In this document: positions 1-7,025 of the stretch, in pieces
Layout of the letters: every line of letters starts with the position of its first letter
Position numbering within the stretch: the stretch's first letter is position 1
Source of the DNA: Candidatus Nanoarchaeia archaeon
GTDB taxonomy: Archaea > Nanobdellota > Nanobdellia > SCGC-AAA011-G17 > JACPNG01
Direction: 5' to 3'
Assembly (NCBI GenBank): GCA_028714095.1
Contig: JAQTMY010000001.1
Location: 341,804 to 405,803, forward strand
DNA length: 64,000 bases
Position numbers and translations under genes: made by a program
The notes under the pieces: generated by a model
The model's input: only the letters and a program-made list of their open reading frames with translations
Told to the model about the DNA's origin: nothing
Databases searched by the model: none

Positions 1-728
1 AAGTATAAATTTAATATAGGAACAGAAATTTCTTTTATGTTTCCATGCTCATTGCATTTGAACATTCCGTTCTCAAAAGTTACTTTTTTCCTGCATTCAG
101 GGCATGCATCATAAAATCTTGGATCAAAGACCTGGACAATTGTTCCCTGTATCATCACATTCTGGCTTTCAGTTAAATCCTTAATCTTAACTAACTCCCC
201 TTTACTGAAGTCACTATTTGTTTCACCAACAACCACCCCAGAAGGATTTATTTCTATCTTAGAACTATTAGTTAAATGAACTTCTTTCCCAAAGCTGCTT
301 TCCTTGACATAAAATTCGTTAAATCTTAATATGTCTCCAGGATTTACCTTATCCATTATACTTATCTGGCTTGTGTCCCATATAACCAATCTACAGGTTT
401 CTGAATCGTCTCCAATAAGAAGATTCTGGACTTTTCCAAGAGTATTATTCCTGTTAAACTCCCTTACATCATACTTTGCAATGACTCTTGCATTTAATGT
501 TATTCCTCTGACTCCAGAAAACAAATTTTTGATTTTAAAATCTCTTTTTGACTGGTCAATTAATTTAATCCCTAATTCATTGGCAATGATATGGGCTGCC
601 CCCTCCTTGCTTATTAGATCAGATAATTTCTTTAGTCTGTCATTGACCTTAATTTCAATTTCCTGTTTTGTCAGTCCTTTTTCATCGATGATTCTTTGAA
701 CTATGTCTTCATAAGTCATACCAAACAT
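1..728 (-). CDS. rpa: Replication factor A (RPA)-like ssDNA-binding protein, 3' end outside window
   Basis: My translation from ATG at 728 stays open to the left edge (about 242 codons visible). The N-terminal helical segment (residues about 1-55, with an SKEGAAHIIANELG stretch) is typical of archaeal RPA. OB-fold-like segments follow (LNARVIAKYD, then LLIGDDSETCRLVIWD around residues 75-120). A CPEC...CNEH zinc-ribbon pair lies near residues 208-225. The family coats single-stranded DNA in replication and repair. A second in-frame ATG at 719 is possible, but an AGGGGGA ribosome-binding-like stretch at about 737-744 favours 728. A TATA-like element lies at 786-794. Family assignment is good; the C-terminal part is unseen. 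Confidence 0.85.
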   Translation of the reverse strand, partial: MFGMTYEDIVQRIIDEKGLTKQEIEIKVNDRLKKLSDLISKEGAAHIIANELGIKLIDQSKRDFKIKNLFSGVRGITLNARVIAKYDVREFNRNNTLGKVQNLLIGDDSETCRLVIWDTSQISIMDKVNPGDILRFNEFYVKESSFGKEVHLTNSSKIEINPSGVVVGETNSDFSKGELVKIKDLTESQNVMIQGTIVQVFDPRFYDACPECRKKVTFENGMFKCNEHGNIKEISVPILNLY

Positions 729-803: not shown

Positions 804-1697
804 TTATTTTTTTAAAGGATTTACTTTTATTGGTCCAAAGTGGCTTGAAAAAGTATATTTGTAGTTAAAAGAAACTGTTACATCAGTATCAAAGTCTGTC
901 TGCCCCTTTTCAAGGGTTGGGGCATTTCCTTCACAAGTTATCTTGTTTCCTTCAAGGTTTTTTGGAGAGACTATGAATTTAGAGGGGCATTCAATTGCAG
1001 AATTTCCAAACTCTAGGTTTATGTTATTTAATTCCCTGTCTCTTGTGATTAGATCTTTGCCCAAGTCAGCAAAATAAATTGTAAATATTACTTTTTGTGA
1101 TCCATCAACGCTTAATGGATAATTTCTTTCTATTCTTGAAATTCCTACAGGATATGTAGAATCATACCTGCTATTGGACCCAAGATTTTCTTTTTTATTA
1201 CAATAAGGTTCAACCCCTACACAGGTTGTATATTTGCTTTCAAACTTAACATCATAGGTTACATCAGCCCTTATGGTTATAGATTCCTGTGCATCAACTG
1301 CATTATATACGATACTCCCTAAATTAATTATCTTACAGTTTTTTCTGTCAATGCAGGGTTTTCCAAGCTCAGATTCTATTCCTTTTATCCCACTTAGATC
1401 ACTAATTTTTTTCTCTGTTTTTTTAAATCCGCCAAGTTCGCCTTCAACAAAATCTTGGAATACCATATCAACATTGGTTGATTCTGGCATGTTGTTTGTT
1501 AATTCAAAGATTAAAGGGACAGACTTTCCAGAACTTACCTCACTATAATCATTTAAAAAGTCTATTGCTTCTAGTTTAATTCCTCTTGAAGGGTTTGATG
1601 TACTATCTCCTGTGTCTTTATTTTGAGCATTTAATGTTGTACATCCAGCTAGAAAGATTAACCATAATGCAATGATTAGTTTAATATTTTTATACAT
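804..1697 (-). CDS. Secreted lipoprotein of unknown function
   Basis: 297 aa. The N-terminus is a lipoprotein signal peptide: MYKNIK, a hydrophobic stretch, then a LAGC lipobox at about residues 16-19. The remainder is polar and beta-rich, with scattered cysteines near residues 115-165 and no recognised domain. It is the last gene of the minus-strand operon that starts near 5832 and overlaps the preceding membrane protein by 8 bases, so the two are probably made together. Its beta-rich body resembles Ig-like surface proteins only in a general way. I do not recognise a family. Confidence 0.75.
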   Translation of the reverse strand: MYKNIKLIIALWLIFLAGCTTLNAQNKDTGDSTSNPSRGIKLEAIDFLNDYSEVSSGKSVPLIFELTNNMPESTNVDMVFQDFVEGELGGFKKTEKKISDLSGIKGIESELGKPCIDRKNCKIINLGSIVYNAVDAQESITIRADVTYDVKFESKYTTCVGVEPYCNKKENLGSNSRYDSTYPVGISRIERNYPLSVDGSQKVIFTIYFADLGKDLITRDRELNNINLEFGNSAIECPSKFIVSPKNLEGNKITCEGNAPTLEKGQTDFDTDVTVSFNYKYTFSSHFGPIKVNPLKK

Positions 1698-3072
1698 TCT
1701 TTTTTCTTACCTCTATTGTTTTGCTTTGCTCATAACCATACTTATAGTTAGCTATCGCCTTGATATAATTTTTTTCTAATGAGGCACTATCTTCTTTGAT
1801 ATTTACCCAGCATCCAAATGTCATGTCCCTAGCATCCCCATTTATTATGCAATCATCAAATTTCCATCTTTCTTCCCCTTTGGCTATCTGGTCTCTCACC
1901 TCTTTTATTAAACTATTATCTTCTTTTGATAAACATCCGCAGTCATTAGCTGATCCTTTATTGTCTGGCTCCATGTTCTTTGGGAATATCATCCTGAAAC
2001 TATTTATTTCTTTAATGCTTCCTTCATCGTCTGATTTAAACCTTACAAATAATTTTGCCTGGTTACTCTCCTTGGAAAATGGCTGAGTATTCGTCCCTAT
2101 TGCAATCGTCATTGGTCCTGAATCAAGTTTTCTTGTGGTTATTACCCCATTCCCAGCCCACAACCCAGAGGATAAAACCAAGGGTTTGATGTATTTTTCA
2201 GCATATTCTTCTCTCCCCCCTGATTTGGCTATTTCTTTAGTATCAATTGTATAAACAGCAAGGTCACTTTTAGCTATTCCTTCATAAGTGACATTTACAC
2301 TTACTGTTTTTCCTTCAATCTCATTATCAATATTATTTATCCCCCCGGGGAATGTGCAGCTGACACTTAGGAAATCATTAACTTTTCCTGCAGAATTTGG
2401 ATAAAATATCTGCCCTTTATTTTCTTCATTTACCCCAATAGGTTTATATTCAACCTTTCCGTTAAAGTCTTCTAGTTCACAGTTTACAACTAATTTTAAT
2501 TTATCCCCCTCAACTTCCATATTATTTATTTTAATAATAGCGTCTACAACAATTTTTTCTCCTTCAAAGAAATAAGCCCCTGCTGGTTCAATCTTATCGA
2601 TACTTATTCTTGCTGTAATATCTCCTTCTTTTTTTGCATCTGGATTTTGCCATGAACCAAAACTTTCCTCAGGATAAACTATCATCCCAAATACCTTGCT
2701 GAAAAATCCATAAACTGCAATTCCAAACTCGCTTTGTTTTAGATTTGTAACTCCTTGTTTTAATTTTGTTGGTAACCATCCGCTTAAGAATCCTGAAATT
2801 AAGAATATAAGGAGCAAAACAATAATTATTGTTTTCAGCCAGGGAAATCTTTTCTTTTCAGTTATTGTCTTTGGCCCTGATTGTTTTATAATTATTGGTT
2901 GGGGTTTTTCTCCACCAAATGCTCTTCTGAATGGATAGCTTACTGTCCTTCCAACCCCTTTTACTCTGTTCCAGTTAGAGGATTGTATATCTCTCTTACC
3001 TCTTTCTATATCAACTCTTGCTTTCTCATCCCTTATTTCCTCAGCGCTCTTTTTGCTAAACCATCCACTCAT
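1690..3072 (-). CDS. Single-span membrane protein with large external domain, unknown function
   Basis: 460 aa. A charged cytoplasmic N-terminus (about 75 residues, rich in K/R/E) is followed by one membrane segment at about residues 77-97 (TIIIVLLLIFLISGFLSGWL) and a long extracellular part. The external part has beta-rich segments (ISIDKIEPAGAYFFEGEKIV) and a CGCL..C..C cysteine group near residues 378-418. No family recognised. It overlaps the lipoprotein gene by 8 bases and lies 24 bases after a pilin-like gene, so it belongs to the same operon. It may be an assembly or anchoring component of the surface structure made by its neighbours (inference). Confidence 0.75.
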   Translation of the reverse strand: MSGWFSKKSAEEIRDEKARVDIERGKRDIQSSNWNRVKGVGRTVSYPFRRAFGGEKPQPIIIKQSGPKTITEKKRFPWLKTIIIVLLLIFLISGFLSGWLPTKLKQGVTNLKQSEFGIAVYGFFSKVFGMIVYPEESFGSWQNPDAKKEGDITARISIDKIEPAGAYFFEGEKIVVDAIIKINNMEVEGDKLKLVVNCELEDFNGKVEYKPIGVNEENKGQIFYPNSAGKVNDFLSVSCTFPGGINNIDNEIEGKTVSVNVTYEGIAKSDLAVYTIDTKEIAKSGGREEYAEKYIKPLVLSSGLWAGNGVITTRKLDSGPMTIAIGTNTQPFSKESNQAKLFVRFKSDDEGSIKEINSFRMIFPKNMEPDNKGSANDCGCLSKEDNSLIKEVRDQIAKGEERWKFDDCIINGDARDMTFGCWVNIKEDSASLEKNYIKAIANYKYGYEQSKTIEVRKKNV

Positions 3073-3096
3073 GTAAACCTCTTTTAAAGTTTGTTT

Positions 3097-3726
3097 TTAT
3101 TTATTTAAATCTATCTCTGTTTTTATTATTTCTCCATTGTTCCTGATATGAACAATAATTTTATCATCTTCTTTCTTAAGTGTTTCAAAATCATAGCTTA
3201 TATCAAAACAATTTTCCAGATTTGTATTTGTTTTAAGGCATTCTATTCTATATGACTTTTTGAATTTTTCATAATCAAAAAAATTAACAGGATATTCAAA
3301 GTTTAAACTCTTGCTGTAAACAATATTTCCCTCATCGCCTAAATAGGTCAGTTGCCCATCAATCCACCATATTCTGTAATTTACTTTTCCAATTAATTTT
3401 GAATCTTTTATTTCATAGCTATATCCTGTAGGCATATTATTTAGTTTTAGTCTTTTGGTAAATTTTTCCTTGAATTGGTTTATGAAATCATTTTCATCAG
3501 AATAATCATTTGAAATTTCCTCAACAGAGAGTCTTACGCTTGAATCCAGATAAAATAATTCTTTTTCAACTTCTTTGTATCCTTTAATCATCTCTAATGA
3601 TTTATCTCCTACCTCTTCTAACCCAGCCTTCTTTGCATTTAACAAGAATATTGCAGATAATAAAATAAGGATAATCCCCAGAGAAGCTAATGGCAGTAAC
3701 AATTCCACCCCTTTTTTATTAAACAT
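3097..3726 (-). CDS. Pilin-like (class III signal peptide-like) membrane-anchored protein
   Basis: 209 aa. The N-terminus MFNKKG-VELLLPLASLGIILILL matches the pattern of archaeal prepilins: a short basic leader ending in KKG, a glutamate a few residues later, then one hydrophobic helix. A polar, partly charged domain follows. Archaeal prepilin peptidases cut after such a glycine; cleavage here is inferred, not shown. It overlaps the upstream gene by 8 bases. No further domain recognised. Confidence 0.7.
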   Translation of the reverse strand: MFNKKGVELLLPLASLGIILILLSAIFLLNAKKAGLEEVGDKSLEMIKGYKEVEKELFYLDSSVRLSVEEISNDYSDENDFINQFKEKFTKRLKLNNMPTGYSYEIKDSKLIGKVNYRIWWIDGQLTYLGDEGNIVYSKSLNFEYPVNFFDYEKFKKSYRIECLKTNTNLENCFDISYDFETLKKEDDKIIVHIRNNGEIIKTEIDLNK

Positions 3727-4177
3727 TTAACTTGTCACCTCTTAATTCAAAGGTTATTTTTATTATCTTTCCCTCTCCAGGGTATTTTAATTCTGAACTT
3801 ATTCTGTCTAAGTATAAATTCCAGTCGAGGTTATCCTGAATTATAGTTTCATCATCTATTGAAATTTTCCACCCGCATTTAGATTCCCCGCAATAAGATT
3901 TAATCAGAGGATCTATTTTTTCTATGACCTTATCTTCATCCTCTTTGTTTTCAATAATATAATCTACCATCATTTTATCTTCTACTTTGGTATTCATTAA
4001 GTTTATAACAAATATCTCAAAATCCCTGTCAATGTCTTTAGCAATTATTTTTTCATCAATGTCCCCACCCTTCTTAAAACTTGAGCTTACATCGATTGCA
4101 AAGAAAGTTAAAACCAAAAGGAATGTAATGAATGCCAAAATGTCTTTTAATGGGAAAATTTCTCCTTTACTATTCAC
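3719..4177 (-). CDS. Small single-anchor surface protein with pilin-like N-terminus
   Basis: 152 aa, starting with GTG at 4177; the next methionine lies far inside the protein. The N-terminus MNSKGEIFPLKDILAF has a short leader, a KG pair with glutamate at +1, and then a hydrophobic segment to about residue 30, resembling pseudopilins. The remaining part is acidic, with one Cys pair near residues 95-101. The GTG lies inside the end of the previous gene (8-base overlap), implying translational coupling. Function unknown. Confidence 0.65.
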   Translation of the reverse strand: MNSKGEIFPLKDILAFITFLLVLTFFAIDVSSSFKKGGDIDEKIIAKDIDRDFEIFVINLMNTKVEDKMMVDYIIENKEDEDKVIEKIDPLIKSYCGESKCGWKISIDDETIIQDNLDWNLYLDRISSELKYPGEGKIIKITFELRGDKLNV

Positions 4178-4610
4178 TCATTATCACCCCTAAATCTAAA
4201 ATCTTGCCTTCTCCGTTGACCAAAACATATTTTCTCTCAAAGAAACAATTATCCTTGAGTTTGCAAAAGTTTAACTGGTCTTTGTATGCCAAGAGATCAT
4301 TTGAAATTTCTTTGCTGTCTATCTTTGCATAAACCAGATTGTCTGTTATCAAACATGAATTTAATCTTTCTTCATTGAAGTTGCTCATATTAATAACCCC
4401 TATATGAGCTCTATAATCCTCATAAGCAAAACAGTCTGAACTATAAAACAATCTTTTCATTAACAAGTCTGCCTGAAAACCATCAACCTTAATGTCCTGA
4501 TTTACAGCCATATGCAAGACCATAACAACAGAACCAATCATTATCCCCAGTACAACAAGTACAACTATCTGGTATGGAACCTTTTCCCCAAGTTCTGAAG
4601 AATCACTCAT
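4170..4610 (-). CDS. Small membrane-anchored protein, unknown function
   Basis: 146 aa. A short polar N-terminus (MSDSSELGEKVPYQ) precedes one hydrophobic segment at about residues 15-37, then a polar domain with four cysteines (roughly residues 55, 85, 115 and 121). Unlike its neighbours it lacks a KKG/KRG leader, though it occupies the same operon slot. Start ATG at 4610 overlaps the upstream stop in an ATGA arrangement. Probably a minor component of the same surface assembly (inference from context). Confidence 0.65.
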   Translation of the reverse strand: MSDSSELGEKVPYQIVVLVVLGIMIGSVVMVLHMAVNQDIKVDGFQADLLMKRLFYSSDCFAYEDYRAHIGVINMSNFNEERLNSCLITDNLVYAKIDSKEISNDLLAYKDQLNFCKLKDNCFFERKYVLVNGEGKILDLGVIMSE

Positions 4611-4933
4611 GAGCTCACCTCAAAATTTTCTTCGTTTTGCTTCCAGTTTAATTTCTTAGTTCCAGTAGAATAGTCAAACTTGAAGACTCCGGCCCTTACA
4701 TAGCCCCCCCCAATTGAGATATCGTCGCCTTTATTGATATTATAAACTAATTTTGAATCCCTGCACAGATATAATGTGTCCACCATTAGTGCAATATCTA
4801 TTGTTGCAGTCCTTCTTTCAATGTATCTTGAATTTTTAAAGGTTGAGACATAATATCCCAAGGCTCCAACTACAATAATTGCAATTAAAATAGAAAAGAC
4901 AGCAAATAACTGTAAATCTCCCCTTTTTTTCAT
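4607..4933 (-). CDS. Pilin-like small surface protein
   Basis: 108 aa. MKKRG-DLQLFAVFSILIAIIVVGALG: a basic leader ending in KRG, then one hydrophobic helix and a short beta-rich tail with a glycine cluster (SIGGGYVRAGVF near residue 73). The layout resembles archaeal type IV pseudopilins, although the conserved glutamate at +5 is replaced. It is joined by an ATGA overlap to the next gene. No family recognised beyond the N-terminus. Confidence 0.65.
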   Translation of the reverse strand: MKKRGDLQLFAVFSILIAIIVVGALGYYVSTFKNSRYIERRTATIDIALMVDTLYLCRDSKLVYNINKGDDISIGGGYVRAGVFKFDYSTGTKKLNWKQNEENFEVSS

Positions 4934-4969
4934 ATAATTCTTTAACTATTTTTATTTATATTAGTTTTG

Positions 4970-5434
4970 CTAAGCTAAACTGTAAACTTTGTTGCTTAAT
5001 TCTAATCTGTAACTTTTTACATTATCTGCTTCACTGACTAATACCCCTGAAAGCTGAAGGTTATTTCTTACAGTCTCGCATAAAATAAAATTGTTTGTTT
5101 CTTTGTTGTATAGGCATAGGCAGCTTGCTTCTTTGCATTTTTCATTCTCGCTTATGACTGATTCTGTAAACTCATTTGCCAAATCTCCCTTATTCTGGGC
5201 ATAGACAACATAATCTTCATTGAAGCTCAGGACTATGTTCTTTACCCCTCCTTCTTTCAGCTCATTTAAACTATTAACAAGTTCATTAAAACTCTTTACA
5301 GTCTGGCTGTCTGCAGAAGCTCCAGGCAAGGCTGTTTTATATAAATCAACCAAAAATTTTCCAACAACCAAGGTAATTATTATCCCAATAACAAGCATTA
5401 TCAGAAACTTTAAAGTTAAACCTCTCTTATTCAT
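4970..5434 (-). CDS. Pilin-like small surface protein with cysteine cluster
   Basis: 154 aa. MNKRG-LTLKFLIMLVIGIIITLVV, then a linker and a mainly helical/beta domain containing a CKEASCLCLY cysteine group near residues 102-110 and a further Cys near 121. The KRG leader and single helix resemble prepilins; glutamate at +5 is absent. It is the second gene of the operon, 41 bases after the first. Function unknown. Confidence 0.65.
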   Translation of the reverse strand: MNKRGLTLKFLIMLVIGIIITLVVGKFLVDLYKTALPGASADSQTVKSFNELVNSLNELKEGGVKNIVLSFNEDYVVYAQNKGDLANEFTESVISENEKCKEASCLCLYNKETNNFILCETVRNNLQLSGVLVSEADNVKSYRLELSNKVYSLA

Positions 5435-5475
5435 AAAATAAGAAAAGAGAGAAGAAATATTTAAGTGTTATTGTT

Positions 5476-5832
5476 CTAACAGGTTATTGCTTCTCCATTA
5501 ACCTTGCATTCTACATTGAGATCAATGCATTTTTTTGGTTTTGTTTCTCCTGATTTTGCAGCAATAACATCAAACGTTTTCTGGCAGAATGCGGACTTTG
5601 GGGCATCAGCTTTCTTCTCAATTGTGCCACAATAAGTATTGCATAGCTGCTTGGCTAGGTTTTCATCTGTTCCGGTTGTACCGCTAAAGAATATGCCTTT
5701 GGCTTTGTCTGTTACATTCTTGAACCCGTAAAGGAAGAAAACTACAACAATAACCAGAACTATTATCAGAATAATTCCTATTATAATAACATTAAGAGAA
5801 ACTTCTGCACCTTTTTTGTTAATCTCAGGCAT
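5476..5832 (-). CDS. Pilin-like small surface protein, first gene of the surface operon
   Basis: 118 aa. MPEINKKG-AEVSLNVIIIGIILIIVLVIVVVF fits the archaeal class III signal-peptide pattern: a basic leader ending in KKG, a nearby glutamate and a long hydrophobic helix. The short exposed domain has six cysteines spaced in pairs between about residues 68 and 118, suggesting disulfides. It has its own TATA-like element and a strong GAGGTGAT ribosome binding site, so it leads the operon and may be the most highly made subunit (inference). Confidence 0.7.
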   Translation of the reverse strand: MPEINKKGAEVSLNVIIIGIILIIVLVIVVVFFLYGFKNVTDKAKGIFFSGTTGTDENLAKQLCNTYCGTIEKKADAPKSAFCQKTFDVIAAKSGETKPKKCIDLNVECKVNGEAITC

Positions 5833-5835
5833 TAA

Positions 5836-5875
5836 ATCACCTCTTAGTTTATATTTGCATAAAATCTATTTAAAT
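5836..5875 (-). promoter_or_regulatory. Promoter and ribosome binding site of the pilin-like operon
   Basis: Reading leftwards, a TTTAAATA box at 5867-5874 is followed about 30 bases later by GAGGTGAT at 5836-5843 and ATG at 5832. The spacing fits an archaeal TATA-driven transcript with a short Shine-Dalgarno leader. Confidence 0.5.
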
Positions 5876-5882
5876 CTTTTGG

Positions 5883-7025
5883 TTAGTCAAAAGAAATGAG
5901 AATTTCATCAACTTTCTTCTTTGGTTTGTCATCCTTTGTTATTATGTCTTTAGCTCTTAACCTTGAAAGATAACTCCTTGTTGAGCTTTCCTTTAAGGAG
6001 CTTAATTTTACAATTTCCTCTACATTTCTTTCTCCATTGCATAGTTTGATTATTTCTAACTTTTGAGGATTTAAAAATGAAAGAATTTTTCTTAGGTCTT
6101 CCCTATTCTTGATATAATTAATCTTTCTTATCCCGGCTTCGCCAGCATCAAGTAGCTGAATCTTTATAATTTCTATCCATACATATAAATTCTCAGATAA
6201 GGTATTGATAATGTCTTTTTTGTTAAGATCTGGTAAAACCTCAAAGACATAGTTCAAAGGAACCTTCTCTATTTTAAAATCCTTTGAGATAAATATATCC
6301 TTGCCGATAAGTTCAGACAGGGCAGACAAGAGAAGCTTTATTTCACTCAAGCTTATTCCATTTGAATATGCCTTTTCAACCTCCCTCTCAACCTCATTCC
6401 TTGACATTCCAACAGAAATCCATCTTCCAGATTCATAATTAAGGATAGGAATCCTTGGAGCATAAATCTTTCTTGGATGGTCCAGAATTATGTTTTTTTC
6501 TGAGATTGTTTCCTCTACTTTGTTGATAATATATTTTAACTTGCTTCCAACATAATAATCTGTAATTTTATTTATTTTTAATTCCGGGAATAGTTTATTG
6601 ATATAAACTGCAATCAAATAATCTGCGATAGTAAATGTAATCTTATTAATAGTTATGCTCTGATAATTTGTATCTTTTTCCTCAAAGTTTTCAGCAAGAT
6701 ATTTTAATGATATTTTCCCAAGAATAGAATACAATAAGTTAAATGCTTCTTCATTCTTTGTCAACCTTGCAAATGCATCAGACAAATAAATTACCTTATA
6801 ATTAATTTTATGATAATCAAGTAAGGATTTTAATTTTTCAAGTAATATTTTGTAATCTTCTTTACTTAAATCAGTCCATGCCTGAAAAGGATAAAGGGTT
6901 TGGTCCCAGAAGCATAATATAAGTTTATCTCCTTCTTTTAGCTTGCTTATACTGTTATTCAGATGGAATAATCCAGGGTAATGTAAACTATTGCAGAACA
7001 TATTTAAGTATAATGTTTTTGGCAT
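5883..7025 (-). CDS. Orphan protein: possible HUP/TyrRS-like domain plus C-terminal winged helix
   Basis: 380 aa, not recognised with certainty. The first about 200 residues read like a Rossmann/HUP nucleotidyl-transfer fold: beta strand KTLYLNMFC, helix, then KLILCFWDQTLY. A later segment (APRIPILNYESGRWISVGMSRNEV) sits where TyrRS-like proteins carry a KMSKS loop, but the catalytic lysines are not conserved. The last about 60 residues (LEIIKLCNGERNVEEIVKLSSL...) form a helix-turn-helix of winged type. It could be a degenerate synthetase-like regulator. A TATA box at about 7047-7054 suggests a leaderless transcript. Function unknown. Confidence 0.55.
   Translation of the reverse strand: MPKTLYLNMFCNSLHYPGLFHLNNSISKLKEGDKLILCFWDQTLYPFQAWTDLSKEDYKILLEKLKSLLDYHKINYKVIYLSDAFARLTKNEEAFNLLYSILGKISLKYLAENFEEKDTNYQSITINKITFTIADYLIAVYINKLFPELKINKITDYYVGSKLKYIINKVEETISEKNIILDHPRKIYAPRIPILNYESGRWISVGMSRNEVEREVEKAYSNGISLSEIKLLLSALSELIGKDIFISKDFKIEKVPLNYVFEVLPDLNKKDIINTLSENLYVWIEIIKIQLLDAGEAGIRKINYIKNREDLRKILSFLNPQKLEIIKLCNGERNVEEIVKLSSLKESSTRSYLSRLRAKDIITKDDKPKKKVDEILISFD

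Follow-up and report, generated by a model that had tools for sequence, protein, structure and literature searches.

Pilin-like genes of a Nanoarchaeia archaeon probably belong to a divergent archaeal type IV pilus that spans the class, with its assembly genes elsewhere in the genome

Introduction

According to the 2016 survey by Makarova, Koonin and Albers (PMC4858521), archaeal type IV pili combine a secretion ATPase, a membrane platform and an A24 peptidase with several pilins carrying class III leaders and with extra surface proteins, and their ATPase/platform and pilin loci can be apart. The same holds, with a putative platform, for the system described here, one part of which is an operon of eight genes at positions 804-5832 of a 64,000-nucleotide stretch of DNA (the window) from Candidatus Nanoarchaeia archaeon. 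The genome comprises 853 kb in two contigs, C1 and C2, and the window corresponds to C1:341804-405803. A second precedent is found in the type IV pilus islands of DPANN archaea (Makarova, Wolf and Koonin 2019, PMC6393860, Fig. 2A), where signal-peptide proteins without detectable relatives stand beside FliI/TadC-like genes, as they do here. Very short major pilins are known from Tad and Epd-like systems (PMC6668835).

An earlier note on this DNA offered two views of the operon: an undescribed apparatus without recognised assembly genes, or a set of pilins used with machinery encoded elsewhere. Our analysis supports the second. The lack of assembly genes is local to the window; the same genome encodes an ATPase, a platform and an A24 peptidase, and in relatives the ATPase, the platform and the six small genes of the operon form a single run. 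We conclude, with a probability of about 0.82, that the operon supplies some of the pilins and the outer-face anchors of a divergent archaeal type IV pilus found across the class.

Results

As the earlier note had described, positions 804-5832 hold eight consecutive genes, here named g1 to g8. All lie on the minus strand, and the order of g1-g6 is kept in relatives:

5476..5832, minus strand: g1, pilin-like protein of 118 amino acids; leader MPEINKKG, then helix; opens the run in 37 named loci
4970..5434, minus strand: g2, pilin-like protein of 154 amino acids; leader MNKRG; homologues of up to 568 amino acids
4607..4933, minus strand: g3, pilin-like protein of 108 amino acids; leader MKKRG
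4170..4610, minus strand: g4, pilin-like protein of 146 amino acids; no class III motif; helix, then strands predicted
3719..4177, minus strand: g5, pilin-like protein of 152 amino acids; GTG start; leader MNSKG
3097..3726, minus strand: g6, pilin-like protein of 209 amino acids; leader MFNKKG; homologues of up to 518 amino acids
1690..3072, minus strand: g7, single-span protein of 460 amino acids; transmembrane segment 82-100
804..1697, minus strand: g8, lipoprotein of 297 amino acids; lipobox LAGC

Each of the six small proteins, g1 to g6, has a single N-terminal helix. The basic leaders ending in KKG, KRG or KG that had been likened to class III signal peptides are present, by the pattern [KR]G, in g1, g2, g3, g5 and g6, and absent from g4. 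When leaders were scored with a prepilin pattern written for the present analysis, 170 of 230 g1-g6 homologues were positive as against 6 of 26 controls, which were other single-span proteins (Fisher p 5e-7, a value that is too small since the homologues are not independent). Leaders were found in 57-90% of homologues in the families other than g4. The protein bodies do contain the cysteine clusters ascribed to them, with conserved positions in g1 (C64, C68, C83, C109, C118), g2 (C100, C105, C107, C119) and g4 (C60, C86, C116, C122), and the claim that they have no known domains also holds: Pfam and NCBIfam searches of g1-g8 gave chance matches only. The operon closes with a single-span protein and a lipoprotein, as had been proposed. 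The first of these, g7, consists of a basic cytoplasmic N-terminus, the transmembrane segment and a large outer domain with four invariant cysteines; a PDB sequence search with its profile gave no meaningful relatives.

A search with an alignment of the platform protein (see below) found 223 relatives, and the best 80 were retained for locus comparison. They were titled Woesearchaeota, Nanoarchaeota, Nanoarchaeia or unassigned archaeon, except for one bin, whose title was bacterium. For the annotation of neighbourhoods we used profiles made from the closest relatives. Of the 80, 33 named loci (Woesearchaeota/Nanoarchaeota) contained four or more of g1-g6. These genes lay on one strand in 33/33 and were strictly colinear in 32, the exception having an extra gene, scored as g5, ahead of g1. 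Thus, related genomes do share the gene order, the check that the earlier note had suggested. Directly upstream of g1-g6, most of them have a T2SSE ATPase and the platform; where no g1-g6 are visible among the 80, contig ends may have truncated the locus, or its pilins may be too divergent. L101, which belongs to the same family as the window's genome, has ATPase, platform and g1-g8 in a single run, and five genomes outside that family have the order ATPase, platform, one or two pilin-like genes, g1-g6 and an RPA-like gene. The best phylogenetic marker of the operon is g4, whose profile matched 72 of 103 genomes of the order, at one place per genome, and 191 of 281 genomes in a further count, more weakly with distance. 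Matches to g7 were obtained in 16 of 60 related genomes, our own included. Of 378 genomes sampled from the class, 364 contained the platform, as did 187 of the 190 near-complete ones. An origin from a mobile element or virus was considered and dropped, since the run occurs in one copy only and keeps its synteny from family to family.

The earlier note was also right that the window contains no assembly genes; neither a pilus ATPase nor a T2SSF protein was located within it, nor anything closely related to the A24 peptidase. Elsewhere in the genome, where the earlier note had proposed to look for PilB, PilC and PibD homologues, we found a T2SSE ATPase and an A24 peptidase, with a platform orthologue, whose family matches T2SSF weakly, beside the ATPase. 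The pilus system of this genome is in four pieces, all on contig C1:

C1:201.6-206.1 kb: piece 1, platform and ATPase
C1:201.6-203.8 kb: platform orthologue, adjoining the ATPase; 50% identity to a relative's platform
C1:203.8-206.1 kb: T2SSE ATPase, over the T2SSE cut-off; invariant Walker A
C1:251.6-255.3 kb: piece 2, two mini-pilins and two large pilin-like genes
C1:323.5-330.6 kb: piece 3, second lipoprotein, another pilin-like gene and A24 prepilin peptidase
C1:329.7-330.6 kb: A24 prepilin peptidase, PF01478 over cut-off (E 5e-10); DxxTKEVP and GGAD motifs
C1:342.6-347.6 kb: piece 4, the window operon

The ATPase also matches the FlaI and TadA models, under their family cut-offs, and its homologues likewise carry the T2SSE domain. 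The A24 peptidase lies about 12 kb from the operon, just beyond the window edge. Close to it are the second lipoprotein and a pilin-like protein of 432 amino acids, each of which has homologues where the peptidase is encoded in other families; in several of these, g7, the second lipoprotein and a pilin-like protein of 390-430 amino acids are near the A24 peptidase, and in most other families the g7 gene sits at that locus. Piece 2, found via a search for mini-pilins, encodes a protein with six transmembrane segments, mini-pilins of 37 and 53 amino acids and pilin-like proteins of 387 and 529 amino acids. The six-segment protein, the 53-residue mini-pilin and the 387-residue protein match genes between platform and g1 in L101, and therefore an ancestral single run has been split in the window's lineage. 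The two closest relatives, L094 and L095, likewise have no g1 after the platform. The apparent absence of assembly genes is accounted for by the window edge and one chromosomal split.

Two small coiled-coil-like proteins are encoded divergently from the ATPase (C1:206.2-207.2 kb; L090:10160-11241), and a similar small open reading frame adjoins the ATPase in L075. The genome also has a second type IV pilus locus (C2:10544-19626; L006) with a FlaI-like ATPase, two T2SSF proteins and pilins carrying ISPLIATVLL helices of the common archaeal type.

The platform protein is 710-760 amino acids long, with about nine membrane spans, and over 60 sequences is 45-58% identical to our copy; its gene adjoins the ATPase in this genome and in 65 of 79 loci. 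A weak T2SSF match, below cut-off, was obtained for 12 of 60 members (best E 7e-4). From its position, its topology and this match, we infer a platform of TadC/FlaJ type. A PDB sequence search with the platform profile gave no meaningful relatives. Pfam T2SSF was detected in 103 of 116 near-complete genomes, fewer than the platform at the same E threshold, and mainly detects the second system (for example at C2:11.8-13.8 kb in our genome). The protein at L090:5583-7844 and its homologues constitute a near-universal membrane protein of the class, out of reach of Pfam T2SSF, and are a candidate for a new profile.

Near the pilin operon we found two families of unannotated mini-pilins, proteins of about 36-61 amino acids with a leader, a helix and almost no head, which are shorter than the length limit first applied in gene calling. 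In many relatives their genes, there of 45-61 codons, occupy the interval from g1 to g2 and the place in front of g1. Mini-pilins were located at:

L105:14476-14658: mini-pilin in a relative
L111:3733-3873: mini-pilin in a relative
L101:15485-15762: mini-pilin in a relative
C1:252215-252328 and 253463-253624: mini-pilins of our genome, 37 and 53 amino acids

In other families a mini-pilin gene of 58-61 codons occupies the position of the g1-g2 gap. The apparent gap of 190 bases between g1 and g2 in those families was also considered as a regulatory element, which was ruled out because it holds the small pilin gene.

The overlaps of 4-8 bases said to join the genes exist at four of the seven junctions (g3/g4, g4/g5, g5/g6 and g7/g8; 4 or 8 bases), the other three being gaps of 41, 36 and 24 bases. 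Comparison of three genomes of the genus shows a conserved TATA-like element before each of g1, g2 and g3, and a single operon promoter is therefore not to be assumed; judged from these elements, the earlier claim of one promoter common to all eight genes is doubtful. The gene run continues past g8, with an RPA-like gene starting 75 bases further on. The features flanking and separating the genes are:

5833..5882, minus strand: region upstream of g1; TATA-like element CCAAAAGATTTAAATA, conserved in three genomes
5435..5475, minus strand: g1-g2 gap; conserved TATA-like element and T-rich tract
4934..4969, minus strand: g2-g3 gap; conserved TATA-like element CAAAACTAATATAAATA
3..728, minus strand: RPA-like single-strand DNA binding protein, truncated at the window end; after the pilin operon in relatives

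Downstream of the operon, many families encode the RPA-like protein, a small conserved protein and RadA; in our genome these genes are at C1:339.3-342.5 kb. Directly upstream of g1 is a gene for a protein of 380 amino acids (window 5883-7025) with weak C-terminal winged-helix matches; apart from our genome, only the closest relative (L025) has it next to the operon.

Discussion

The assignment of this system to a pilus is well supported: the conserved gene order, the co-occurrence of the parts, the catalytic motifs and the leaders are all observed. A plausible mechanism would begin with the A24 peptidase clipping the short basic leaders. The T2SSE ATPase would then act on the large membrane platform and drive the helices from the membrane into a thin filament, which would probably consist mainly of helix-only mini-pilins or of g1, a candidate for the larger filament pilin. 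The cysteine-containing g2-g6 would serve as minor or tip pilins, and g7, g8 and the second lipoprotein would fix the filament base at the membrane or surface layer. By analogy, the pilus is probably used for adhesion to other cells. We take this as the default because of the lifestyle of cultured relatives and the precedent of Saccharibacteria, in which one pilus contributes to host binding (PMC12206443).

Several results weigh against this interpretation. The g4 protein (MSDSSELGEK...) has no [KR]G leader, only 15 of its 36 homologues carry one, and this family alone is not above the control rate. Its predicted model (helices 7-36 and 42-56, then four strands; predicted local distance difference test score, pLDDT, 87.6) had no match below E 0.2 in a Foldseek search of the PDB, although its architecture, a long N-terminal helix and then a beta sheet, speaks for the pilus reading. 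The g7 model, predicted from two sequences, is unusable (pLDDT 40.9). Finally, the identity of the platform leans on weak T2SSF scores and on its place beside the ATPase, and hhalign of the platform against our genome's own TadC-like proteins, as single-sequence templates, found nothing.

Among the alternatives, a DNA-uptake pilus, in which the pilins and the neighbouring RPA and RadA would form a system for natural transformation or nucleic-acid scavenging, seems unlikely, although it fares best. The RPA-like gene comes after g6 in many relatives; rpa directly follows the pilin run, with radA within about 3.2 kb past rpa, in 13 of the 15 named loci with enough downstream sequence, and in 11 more distant loci rpa is convergent, beside the platform. 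This conserved neighbourhood makes DNA uptake a possible function. However, RPA and RadA are housekeeping genes whose linkage may be inherited order, any link of the RPA-like gene to the pilus is putative, and ComEC (PF03772), sought as a mark of DNA uptake, was found in 0 of 40 genomes, our own included. Competent archaea likewise have no ComEC (PMC10133366). Similarly improbable, in our estimate, is the boldest extension of the pilus interpretation, a near-essential machine with which host-dependent archaea throughout the class make contact: a mini-pilin filament, or the genetic identity of the gene-unassigned appendage or attachment tube of cultured relatives, which might take up nucleic acid given the RPA-RadA neighbourhood.

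Slightly less probable still is type II-like secretion driven by a pseudopilus, with short pilins acting as a piston for protein export or for protein transfer into a partner cell. Pilins of several lengths and two anchored outer proteins would suit such a device, and near-universal conservation suggests a vital exchange function, but no secretin or component specific to the type II secretion system was found among the neighbours, and archaeal pili already described have the same set of parts (PMC4858521). An archaellum, the rotary swimming filament, is very improbable: the ATPase does match the FlaI model, but at 118.6 bits, below the cut-off of 550, and with the TadA model scoring almost equally, and neither FlaH-, FlaF- or FlaG-like proteins nor FlaC/D/E were recognised among the locus proteins scanned, no genome-wide search having been made. 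Equally remote is a chance co-transcription of unrelated signal-anchored surface proteins, for which the KKG-plus-helix starts of the 6 of 26 controls and the motif-less g4 could be cited, since the order is conserved next to an assembly ATPase and platform in many families, and the cysteines and leaders are conserved. Ordinary signal-anchor helices, which the earlier note said would refute the pilin reading, fit g4 only.

The divergent type IV pilus remains our preferred reading. Genomes of 0.5-1.5 Mb hold few dispensable genes, and the platform is nevertheless present in 187/190 near-complete genomes. Most proteins of the system are unannotated, so that a survey restricted to known families can overlook it. 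For an ATPase/platform pair of DPANN archaea, the cognate pilins are now available as an ordered list. Nanobdella has a second appendage type and an attachment organelle without molecular identity (PMC11104419), and the pilin list makes their identity testable, provided that the same genes occur there.

Compared with the archaeal type IV pili of PMC4858521, the pilin families found here have no Pfam or NCBIfam match and the platform is under the T2SSF cut-off. The text of PMC6393860 on the DPANN islands does not mention the ordered families, the class-wide count, the mini-pilins and the split reported here. Tad/Flp and Epd-like pili (PMC6668835; Denise et al. 2019) share very short major pilins with the present system, whose mini-pilins have 36-61 amino acids, but they have two separate platform genes and TadZ, whereas here there is one platform of fused length (710-760 amino acids). 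The type IV pili used by Saccharibacteria for episymbiosis (PMC12206443) are likewise conserved pili of small, host-dependent cells; these are bacterial, and the analogy is one of lifestyle only. Because PMC4858521 and PMC6393860 provide such near precedents, we regard the system as a variant of a known pilus type and not as a new type.

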